Part shown: positions 31,852 to 62,827 of the stretch, in pieces | Position numbering within the stretch: the first letter of the stretch is position 1 | How the letters are laid out: each line of letters begins with the position of its first letter | From: Candidatus Siliceabacter maunaloa | Lineage (GTDB): Bacteria > Actinomycetota > Thermoleophilia > Solirubrobacterales > Solirubrobacteraceae | Direction of reading: 5' to 3' | DNA: 64,000 nt | Assembly: GCA_024330185.1 (NCBI GenBank) | Contig: JANDLV010000007.1 | Span: 1-64,000 of the forward strand | Notes under the pieces: model-generated | Databases searched by the model: none | What the model was told of the DNA's origin: nothing | Seen by the model: only the letters and a program-made list of their open reading frames with translations | Translations under genes and position numbers: made by a program

Positions 31852-33213
31852 ATGGAACCCGCCGCCGACCCACCCCTGCGCCCGGTCACCGCAGGCGCCG
31901 CGATGTCGGCCACCAGCCGGGGGCTCGTCGCGGTCACCGGCGCGGTCACGACCGTCGTCGTGGCCCGCCTGCTGGGGCCCGAGGGGGCCGGAGCCTTCGC
32001 CATCGCGATCACCCTGGTGGTGATGCTCACCACGTTCGCGACGCTCGGGGTCGAGCACGGCGTGGCCTACCACGTGTCCTCGGGGCGCTGGGCCGCCCGC
32101 GCGGCGCTGGCCACGGTGACGCGCGTCGCGCTGGTCACCGGCACGACCGCCGCGCTGGTCGGGCTCGCCGCGCAGATCCTGGTCCCGTCGGCCTTCGCGG
32201 GGCTGTCGACCGCCTCCGTCGCGGTCGTGGTCGCGGCGATGCCCTTCGTGCTGCTGTGGCTCTACCGCTCCTACCTCGCCCTGGCCACCGACCGCTACGA
32301 GGGCTTCGTGATGCCCCCCGCGGTGCAGTCGACCGTCGCCCTGGTGCTCGTGCTGGGCTGCGCGGTGGCGTTCGGGCTGACCGGGGCGCTCGTCGCCCTC
32401 ACCGTGTCCCATGCGGCGGGGGCGCTGGCCACGCTTCGGGCCGTCCGGGGGTTCCCGCAGCGCGCCGAGGACGGCGGGCCCGGCGGCGACGGCGAGCCGC
32501 GCCAGCTCGCACGGGCCGTGCGCTTCGGCATCAAGGGCTACGCGGGCAACGTGCTCCAGCTCCTCAACCTGCGCCTGGACGTCTTCGTGCTCTCCGCGGC
32601 CGTCGGCGCGGCAGCGGTGGGCCAGCTCTCCGTCGCGCTCGCGGTCACCGGGGTCATCTGGCTCCTGCCCCACGCCCTCAGCGAGGTCATCTTCCCCCGG
32701 GTGGCCACCCTCAGCGCGCGGGCCGACGCGCAGGCCGAGCGCGAGATGGTGGAGACCAAGGGCCTGCGTCACGCCGTGGCGATGATCGCGGGTGGAGGGG
32801 CCTGCATCGCGGCTGCGCTCCTCCTGCTCGTGACCCCGGTGTTCGGGGAGGCCTTTCGCCCGGCCATCGAGCTGGGGCTGATCCTCCTGCCCGGCGTGGC
32901 CCTCCTCGGCGTCAGCCAGGTGCTCGGCGCGATCATCGTGGGGCGTGGACGGCCGGAGTACCTGCTCTACGCGGCGCTGATCGTGACCCCGCTGACGGTG
33001 ATGGGGTACGTGCTGCTCGTTCCCGCCCTGGGCGCCACCGGGGCGGCCCTGGTCAAGAGCGCGTCGTTCACGCTGTCCTTCGTGCTCAGCGTCGTCTTCC
33101 ACCGGCTGGCCACCGGGGACACATCCCTGCGGGTGTTCGTGCCGACCCGCGACGAGCTGCACGACCTGGTCAGGCTCCCGTCCCAGATCCGCGCTTGGGC
33201 GAGGGGTCGCTAG
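31852..33213 (+). CDS. Wzx-type oligosaccharide flippase
   Basis: 453 residues with about 12-14 membrane segments. The N-terminal polysaccharide-synthesis/MATE fold reads VARLLGPEGAGAFAIAITLVVML, and AVRFGIKGYAGNVLQLLNLRLDVFVLS starts the second half. It should flip undecaprenyl-PP-linked repeat units outward. The TAG stop (33211-33213) is the left end of the 168-bp palindromic element at 33210-33377. It pairs functionally with the Wzy-like protein at 10791. The start is GTG or ATG near 31852, after a 74-bp gap from the divergent aminotransferase. Confidence 0.88.
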   Translation: MEPAADPPLRPVTAGAAMSATSRGLVAVTGAVTTVVVARLLGPEGAGAFAIAITLVVMLTTFATLGVEHGVAYHVSSGRWAARAALATVTRVALVTGTTAALVGLAAQILVPSAFAGLSTASVAVVVAAMPFVLLWLYRSYLALATDRYEGFVMPPAVQSTVALVLVLGCAVAFGLTGALVALTVSHAAGALATLRAVRGFPQRAEDGGPGGDGEPRQLARAVRFGIKGYAGNVLQLLNLRLDVFVLSAAVGAAAVGQLSVALAVTGVIWLLPHALSEVIFPRVATLSARADAQAEREMVETKGLRHAVAMIAGGGACIAAALLLLVTPVFGEAFRPAIELGLILLPGVALLGVSQVLGAIIVGRGRPEYLLYAALIVTPLTVMGYVLLVPALGATGAALVKSASFTLSFVLSVVFHRLATGDTSLRVFVPTRDELHDLVRLPSQIRAWARGR

Positions 33214-33377
33214 TGGTCCCTCCGGCAAGTACCGCACCGCTTCGCCGGGCGACAACCGTCGCATGGCGGCGTCCTCATTCGGGGCCAGGCCGCCGGCCTT
33301 GTCCCCTCACTGCGTCCTTGCCCTGCTCGATTCTCGCCACGACGAATCGGCACGCTACTTACCGGATGAACCACTAG
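33210..33377. mobile_element. Palindromic MITE-like element, 168 bp (CTAGTGGT ends)
   Basis: The left end reads CTAGTGGTCCCTCCGGCAAG. The right end, on the other strand, reads CTAGTGGTTCATCCGGTAAG. Imperfect matching continues inward. TA inside CTAG at both ends is the expected target duplication of IS630/Tc1-type transposition. A second element with the same ends and the same length lies at 62660-62827. No transposase is present. The element supplies the stop codon of the flippase on one side and the last seven codons and stop of the methyltransferase on the other. Confidence 0.8.
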
Positions 33378-34284
33378 GCCGACGCGCCGTAGCGTGCAGC
33401 AGGTCGCCGCCGCCGCCCAGGCGGTCGGCCAGGCGGGCGAGGGGGAGGGCGAGCGCGCAGAGGCCGGCGGCGACGCGCAGCGCGAGGCCGTGCGGGAACA
33501 GGCAGCGGCCCCAGAGGCGGTACTGGATGCTCGCCAACAGCCCGACCGCGCTCGTGGAGGTCGAGGTGCGCACGTCGGTGAACCCGGCCTCGTCCAGGGC
33601 GCGGGCCAGCGACGACGCCGTGAAGTGCACCCGGTGGCGGGGGAGGTCGAGGTGGTACCAGCGCCCGCCGAAGCGCCGGGCCTGCCAGCCGCCGGCGTTG
33701 GGGACCGACACGGCGATCACCGCGTCGGGACGCAGCGCGGCGTGGGTGCGGCGCAGGTCGCCCACCGGGTCGTCGGTGTGCTCGAGGGACTGCTGGAAGA
33801 TGGCGGCGTCGTAGGCGCCCGGGTCGAGGGCCACGGTGGCCAGCACCCCGTGGCGCGCGTTCACGCCGCGCTCGCGCGCCACCACGCAGGCCACGTCCGA
33901 CGGCTCCACGCCGGTCATGCGCCAACCGTCGCCTACGAGGCCGGCGGCCACGTCGCCGCGCCCGCACCCTACGTCCAAGCCGCGGCCCGGCGGGAGGGCG
34001 GCGATGGCGTCCAGCGGCGGGCGGCGGCGGGCGGCCCGCCGCTGCGCGGCCTGGATGACCGAGGAGATCGCGCGCACGTGGGGGTGGGGCCGCGCCTCGT
34101 AGGCGCCGTAGCCCGTCGGGTAGTAGCTCGCGAGGTCGTGGAAGGTGGCGGGCGGCAGCGTCATACCGGTGCCACAGCGCGGGCAGCGCGCGACCACGAA
34201 GCGGCCGGGCGTCCCGTGCAACCGATCCGGCGAGACGACCCGGGGCGGGTCGGGCGCGGCGGCGCAGACGGGACAGGCGACCAT
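33355..34284 (-). CDS. SAM-dependent methyltransferase with N-terminal zinc site
   Basis: 309 residues. The N-terminus has CPVCAAAP and CPRCGTG, a zinc-ribbon-like pair, followed by YYPTGYGAYE. Motif I is GLDVGCGRGDVAAGL, GVEPSDVA holds the ribose-binding acid, and IFQQSLEHTDDPVGDLRRTHAAL is the following motif. The layout matches Methyltransf_23-type sugar methyltransferases with a metal-binding head; the gene at 51285 has the same plan. The last residues (PSGSSGK) and the stop are encoded by the palindromic element at 33210-33377. Confidence 0.85.
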   Translation of the reverse strand: MVACPVCAAAPDPPRVVSPDRLHGTPGRFVVARCPRCGTGMTLPPATFHDLASYYPTGYGAYEARPHPHVRAISSVIQAAQRRAARRRPPLDAIAALPPGRGLDVGCGRGDVAAGLVGDGWRMTGVEPSDVACVVARERGVNARHGVLATVALDPGAYDAAIFQQSLEHTDDPVGDLRRTHAALRPDAVIAVSVPNAGGWQARRFGGRWYHLDLPRHRVHFTASSLARALDEAGFTDVRTSTSTSAVGLLASIQYRLWGRCLFPHGLALRVAAGLCALALPLARLADRLGGGGDLLHATARRPSGSSGK

Positions 34285-61901: not shown

Positions 61902-62663
61902 GTGATCATGCCCGGCAAGCTCGCCATCGTCCCCGCCTACAACGAGGAAGCCAGCGTCGGCTTCGTCGTGGACGAACTGCACGCGCACGCCCCGGACTTC
62001 GACGTCCTGGTCGTGGACGACGGCTCGACCGACGCGACGAGCCGCGCCGCGCGCGATGCCGGAGCGGCGGTGCTGCGGATGCCGTTCAACCTGGGTATCG
62101 GGGGTACCGTTCAGGCCGGCTACCAGTACGCGCTCGAGCGCGACTACGACGTGGCGGTGCAGGTCGACGGCGATGGCCAGCACGAGGCCGGTGAGGTCTT
62201 CACGCTGCTGGAGCACCTGCGCTCCAACCCCGACGTGGACATGGTCACGGGCTCGCGCTTCCTGAGCATCGACGAGGACTCCCACCGCAGCACGCGCTCG
62301 CGCCGCCTGGGCATCGCCATCTTCTCCCGGGTCCTCTCCCTGGTCACCGGCCAGGCGGTCACCGATCCCACGTCGGGCTTTCGCATGACCAACCGCCGCG
62401 GCATCGCCCTCTTCGCGCGCGACTATCCCCACGACTACCCCGAGGTCGAGGCGGTGCTCATGATCCACGCCCACCGGCTGCGTAGCGCCGAGGTGCCGGT
62501 AAGCATGCGCCCGCGCACGACCGGGGTCTCCTCGATCAACGCCTCACGGTCGGTCTACTACATGATCAAGGTGCTTCTGGCCGTCCTCGTCGGCCTGTGC
62601 CGCGCCCGGCCGGTGGTCGAGCCGGGCGACCGCTCGCCGGTGGTCGCCGAGTCATCGATCTAG
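61902..62663 (+). CDS. GT2 polyprenyl-phosphate mannosyltransferase-like (DPM1-type)
   Basis: 253 residues. KLAIVPAYNEEASVGFVVDEL, VLVVDDGSTDATSRAARDAG, FNLGIGGTVQAGYQYALERDYDVAVQVDGDGQHEAGEV and DPTSGFRMTNRRGI form the DPM1-like core. The short C-terminal hydrophobic stretch (YYMIKVLLAVLVGL) is followed by a disordered tail. GTG 61902 or ATG 61908 are possible starts. The TAG stop (62661-62663) is formed at the left end of the palindromic element at 62660. DUF2304 proteins usually accompany this type, and one lies at 58737. Confidence 0.88.
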   Translation: MIMPGKLAIVPAYNEEASVGFVVDELHAHAPDFDVLVVDDGSTDATSRAARDAGAAVLRMPFNLGIGGTVQAGYQYALERDYDVAVQVDGDGQHEAGEVFTLLEHLRSNPDVDMVTGSRFLSIDEDSHRSTRSRRLGIAIFSRVLSLVTGQAVTDPTSGFRMTNRRGIALFARDYPHDYPEVEAVLMIHAHRLRSAEVPVSMRPRTTGVSSINASRSVYYMIKVLLAVLVGLCRARPVVEPGDRSPVVAESSI

Positions 62664-62827
62664 TGGTCGCCCCCGCAAATACGTCCCGTTCCGGCGGCCG
62701 CCGATCACCGCCTGGAGCCACCCGGCGACCGGTCATGTGCCAGAGGCACACTCCCGGATCACCGTGCGGCCCCAGCCGGCGCCGGCGACCCCCGGCGACG
62801 GAACGTATTTCCGTGGACAACCACTAG
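62660..62827. mobile_element. Palindromic MITE-like element, 168 bp (CTAGTGGT ends)
   Basis: Left end CTAGTGGTCGCCCCCGCAAA; right end, on the other strand, CTAGTGGTTGTCCACGGAAA. Further inverted similarity runs inward. TA within CTAG at both ends fits an IS630-type target duplication. It has the same length and ends as the element at 33210-33377. No coding capacity for a transposase. It lies exactly between two GT genes and supplies the stop of the first. Its last base is the first of a GTG that is the best start for the second. Confidence 0.8.

Follow-up and report, generated by a model that had tools for sequence, protein, structure and literature searches.

A mobile 162-bp hairpin element at gene junctions in Solirubrobacterales, probably an IS630-type MITE

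The element and its neighbours in the window

The window, a 64,000-nucleotide stretch of contig JANDLV010000007.1 from Candidatus Siliceabacter maunaloa, contains a palindromic element between two convergent genes. A flippase-like polysaccharide biosynthesis gene (31852–33213, plus strand; PF01943, PF13440) meets its left end, and a SAM-dependent methyltransferase gene (33355–34284, minus strand; PF13489) enters its right end. A sequence-only reading of this DNA had described a repeated palindromic insertion placed exactly on gene ends, with both neighbours stopping at or inside it, and this description held. The CTAG at 33210–33213 includes the TAG (33211–33213, plus strand) that closes the flippase frame of 31852–33213, and the methyltransferase frame (34284–33355) runs seven codons into the element before a TAG in the right arm (33355–33357, minus strand), its minus-strand end being CCT AGT GGT TCA TCC GGT AAG TAG. 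The natural unit, GTGG...CCAC, is 162 bp (33213–33374, minus strand, as delimited by the lengths and folds of full-length copies) and lies between two TAs. It replaces the earlier estimate of 168 bp, which included CTAG, because the uninterrupted copies of the two main subfamilies in this genome all run GTG...CAC over 162 bp. Sequence and flank counts over 139 copies identify the TA at 33211–33212, within CTAG, and the TA at 33375–33376, within a second CTAG (33374–33377), as the target-site duplication. The flippase stop consists of the target TA and the first base of the element, a G, and it overlaps, as TAGTG, the GTG of a plus-strand frame of 54 codons (162 = 3 × 54) that can be translated across the element to the right-junction TAG (33213–33377).

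The same reading had taken the element to supply the flippase stop. When the flanks were joined with the element removed, the flippase kept the same TAG; the CTAG target held it already, and the G of the element only rebuilds it. The methyltransferase with joined flanks would have 316 residues, running on to RRPSDPSPKRGSGTGA, and its homologues in two other genomes (G005 and G033), where the element is absent, stop at roughly the same residue. Since the joined flanks keep the TAG and the homologues stop nearby without the element, the insertion restored one stop and shortened a variable tail. At this convergent site stop-rebuilding alone matters, together with a new seven-residue methyltransferase tail.

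A second full-length copy, of another subfamily, lies at 62663–62824 (minus strand), bordered by a stop TAG at 62661–62663 to the left and by TAGTG to the right. It sits in CTAG (62660–62827) and is flanked by two glycosyltransferase-like genes. Its subfamily keeps the fold described below, though the core motif is replaced by GCACGGTGATCCGGG.

Copies, CTAG target and IS630 ends

A search of the same genome (G000), suggested by the sequence-only reading, did find further copies with the inverted repeat. BLAST and pattern searches returned seven copies at 84–100% identity and seven of a second subfamily near 73%, and a covariance model trained on 13 copies located the element at about 25 places. 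With the covariance model, matches were found in 55 of 101 genomes of relatives, representing 34 of 48 genera; elsewhere in Actinomycetota, full-length matches in other families were sporadic. When 84,980 species genomes were scanned for the motif, the matches listed came almost only from Thermoleophilia and Solirubrobacterales. The curated set comprises 139 copies, 138 of them full-length, and most of the source genomes are MAGs; the copies are related by descent, so that their counts are not independent. The curated element is short, repeated and free of a transposase gene, 162 bp long in 83/139 copies and 159–165 bp in nearly all. The element had no match among the curated covariance models of Rfam, and a search for partial copies in the copy-rich genome G081 turned up no autonomous element that had long arms in common with it. 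Some candidates were set aside: a pattern match in Catenulispora (L088) has no hairpin fold and looks like chance, and readings of the element as the attC site of an integron or as a HEARO-like RNA were rejected on ends unlike attC ends and on the lack of an Rfam match.

Several other arrangements were seen along the way. G081 carries about 38 near-identical copies (L339–L368), many of them ending contigs, which looks like a recent burst that broke the assembly. Internally deleted copies occur at L015/L032 (G000 C73:16545–16578) and L079 (72 bp), and the first of these, 34 bp long, still reads TAG...ATG between its neighbour genes. In two pairs of loci (L036/L041 and L039/L042), different subfamilies precede the same apparent gene across genera (MQAVI... 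and MQIGF...), so that one junction seems to have received several insertions or to have had one element replaced by another.

The element is mobile, and its target is CTAG. Empty sites were found in the congener G001 at rimP-nusA, lysC-asd, rpoA-rplQ and a SufB-like gene (names read from sequences), and the rpoA-rplQ insertion was present only in G000 among the 30 genomes read there. The empty alleles of G001 have their own stop codons and stop through their own sequence, not through the element, which tells against a stop-supplying role. Empty-site alignments at four loci (L003, L009, L011 and L013) had junctions too diverged to read. TA flanks the element on both sides in 54/139 copies; in these, C lies outside the left TA in 44/54 and G outside the right TA in 51/54, giving CTAG as the target, for which a 2-bp duplication of TA and a 4-bp duplication of CTAG are indistinguishable. 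Two copies in G081 stand in tandem with a linker of exactly TA. The window has fewer CTAG tetramers than expected (24 vs. 78), and a preference of IS630 for TA in CTAG was already known (Tenzen and Ohtsubo 1991, as cited in PMC2170065).

IS630 transposases (NF033545, PF13358) were found in element-bearing genomes, and 17/17 IS630 copies were flanked by cta...tag and had GTG ends. These ends matched the element ends at 24–27/30 in several subfamilies, compared with a peak of 20–22 in shuffled controls, where run. The IS630 ends of G000 matched the window subfamily at 16/30, within the control range. IS630 ends are present in sister subfamilies, and the element would presumably be mobilised in trans. 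IS630 was not found in the element-rich genomes G059, G081 and G097; MAGs lose repeats. One IS630 copy (L333, 1324–2511, in G004) interrupts an NAD-glutamate-dehydrogenase-like gene, named by reading its sequence.

A strand-specific hairpin with a conserved core

The minus strand of the window element folds into a single hairpin at −108 kcal/mol (z −9.5), and none of 200 shuffles was as stable; the plus strand folds less well (−79.4 kcal/mol, z −5.7). The inverted repeat is imperfect and spans the whole element; for its pair of terminal 22-mers, 100 shuffles of the window gave an expected count of 0. The same strand folded better in 138/138 full-length copies, by a mean difference of −30 kcal/mol. 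In the arms, G.U was far more frequent than A.C (887 vs. 146). This bias is missing from the IS630 ends (26 vs. 22), so it is a property of the hairpin element, and the tolerance of G.U suggests that the folding molecule is RNA rather than single-stranded DNA. The arms also covary. Among 72 distinct arm types, each of the outer 18 pairs was canonical in 65–72, with several pair types per position, and arm pairing was 95% within elements, 59% when arms were swapped between elements and 41–49% when the register was moved by one or two bases.

Within the hairpin lies a conserved core, with its 5' half GGCAAGGACGCAGTGAGGG at 33304–33322 and its 3' half CCGAATGAGGACGCCGCC at 33265–33282 of the window (minus strand). 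The motif GGACRCAG was present in 124/138 copies and GAGGAC in 128/138, the two standing opposed in 122/138, an arrangement that we read as tandem G.A internal loops. The core stays conserved where the arms differ, and in other actinobacterial families it takes the covarying form AAGGCCGCAG/CGAGAACGCC. One subfamily (L080–L084, L086) keeps the fold without the core motif.

Shorter, core-only hairpins of about 85–110 nt with the AAGGACGCAG/GAGGAC core were also seen, at L089, L093, L097, L099, L109, L125, L126, L136, L153 and L157. Some are placed on the stop codon of a gene. L089 and L135 have similar flanks in different genomes, and L064 (1501–1883, G073) holds three core hairpins 100–200 bp apart.

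A functional structured RNA, or a protein-binding hairpin, could produce this pattern if it spread as a MITE and its minus-strand tandem-GA core bound a factor or was processed, so that the fold was maintained. The preference for one strand in every full-length copy and the excess of G.U argue for it, as do a core kept despite arm divergence, found in core-only hairpins and covarying in other families; the missing Rfam family and the subfamily that folds without a core argue against it. So does orientation, the structured strand being more often antisense to the neighbouring operons. We consider such a role possible though somewhat doubtful, and it is compatible with the explanation that we prefer below.

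Stop/start junctions and the internal frame

Genes next to the copies were called from codon statistics, with confidence for part of the flanks only. In callable frames, a gene ended exactly at the junction TAG in 24/54 cases on the left and 20/34 on the right, and the upstream stop often overlapped the GTG of the element as TAGTG. Downstream, 22 of 45 right-hand genes started exactly 2 nt past the element. At the opposite end the same offset held a start in 2/24, giving an orientation bias of 22 vs. 2 (p = 0.0006). The length of these 22 junction copies was divisible by 3 in every case, compared with 93/139 of all curated copies, and the frame of the first codon (GTG) was open in 22/22, as against 71/115 of the others (Fisher p = 1e-4). 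This openness is confined to one frame, the other two being near chance. In 18/22 junction copies the frame runs from its start codon to a right-junction stop that overlaps the next start (TGATG or TAGTG).

The last bases of the element pair as a Shine-Dalgarno sequence at −7.8 kcal/mol on average, compared with −3.7 kcal/mol when shuffled (for example GGAGG-AACCACTG-ATG). The opposite end pairs equally well with the anti-Shine-Dalgarno sequence (−8.8 kcal/mol), and the match therefore has no power to explain the orientation bias. Closure was regular in the junction frame alone (93/137 and 89/137); on the gene strand, early stops in the remaining frames were rarer than in mononucleotide shuffles, even outside operons, so that the element is no general stop module. 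A convergent context like that of the window copy was found in 5/130 scored copies, stop/start junctions inside operons being commoner, and many copies lie at gene ends without a downstream start.

The element is more than an ordinary MITE in two respects: the strand-specific fold with its conserved core, and the open frame at stop/start junctions. Our best explanation, to which we give a probability of about 0.8, is that the element is a non-autonomous IS630-type MITE whose retained operon copies act as a spacer cistron. An IS630-family transposase supplied in trans would cut the element at GTG...CAC and insert it into the TA of CTAG, a rare tetramer that holds the stop codon TAG, which would be rebuilt from the target TA and the first G of the element. 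In co-directional operons, the upstream stop would overlap the GTG as TAGTG, the 54-codon frame would run through the hairpin, and its stop would overlap the next start (TGATG, TAGTG or TAATG). Stop, start and coupling would be re-created on either side, the element ending in a Shine-Dalgarno-like run. On the simplest reading, insertion would swap one coupled stop/start junction for two, as has been proposed for MIRUs. Copies within operons seem to bring a very short frame and a ribosome site with them, which would let the flanking genes go on functioning. The 54-codon frame may be translated, and selection may act on a transcript.

A plain selfish IS630 MITE, with a placement that followed from the rarity of CTAG in genes and its stop content while other insertions were purged, would leave the open frame, the Shine-Dalgarno match and the fold without a role. 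Although the known IS630 target preference, the depletion of CTAG in the window and the many gene-end copies lacking a downstream start are what it predicts, we regard it as unlikely given that junction copies are without exception open and divisible by 3, in one frame only, that their orientation is 22:2, and that IS630 ends lack the strand-specific pairing. A larger proposal would make these elements a phylum-wide family under three superimposed constraints, namely transposon ends, a strand-specific RNA structure whose conserved tandem-GA core would be bound by a host factor, and a 54-codon coupling frame translated from the other strand; they would then amount to a domesticated operon-internal regulator. 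We put this forward as speculation with low odds.

The sequence-only reading had favoured a ready-made gene-end module for both strands, perhaps a hairpin terminator, between convergent genes. Both neighbours do stop at or in the element and the hairpin is very stable, but the flippase stop pre-exists in the joined flanks, the methyltransferase stop is peculiar to the window copy, and few scored copies are convergent; non-junction frames are moreover poor in stops, and the hairpin has no T-tract, with 0 terminator-like sites found. We regard this role as very improbable. A single-strand hairpin of the REP/RAYT or IS200/IS605 type, moved by a Y1 transposase, would suit the strand-specific fold, but PF01797 was detected in 0/10 element-bearing genomes (positive controls were detected) and the TA duplication and inverted ends suit IS630, leaving this idea hardly credible.

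Among the closest known systems is the MIRU of Mycobacterium. It is described as a mobile-looking repeat inserted in intergenic positions at start codons, and its internal frame is coupled to the gene downstream (PMC12548453). The present element likewise inserts at stop/start junctions (22/45) and has frame ends that overlap its neighbours (22/22 open). MIRUs are 40–100 bp (PMC2734929) and often tandem, whereas the element is 162 bp with IS630-like ends; IS630 ends, a CTAG target and a full-length hairpin do not figure in the MIRU descriptions consulted. The element works like a MIRU but is not classed as one, since size and sequence differ. RUP of Streptococcus pneumoniae is also short and non-coding, with ends resembling IS630-Spn1, terminal TA and a predicted RNA fold (PMC2229807, PMC3049150). 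However, it is 107 bp and AT-rich, carries stop codons in each of the six frames, and lacks both a reported stop/start placement and a core common across a phylum. YPAL/RU-2 of Yersinia, at about 168 bp, is palindromic, intergenic and mobile with a strong RNA stem-loop score, but it has no terminal TA, makes duplications of 3–26 bp and occupies other hosts (PMC2229807). Correia/NEMIS and ERIC are TA-flanked inverted-repeat mini-elements that can form RNA stem-loops with their neighbours, and RNase III cleavage has been proposed for NEMIS RNA; their hosts and sequences are different.

The hairpin motif is absent from Rfam, and its covariation is sufficient to define a family. The copies also offer extensive natural material for studying how genes are translationally coupled in Actinomycetota. 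They suggest a route by which a transposon may enter tightly coupled essential operons such as rpoA-rplQ and rimP-nusA without breaking them: the stop is rebuilt, an in-frame mini-cistron is carried, and a ribosome site is presented.
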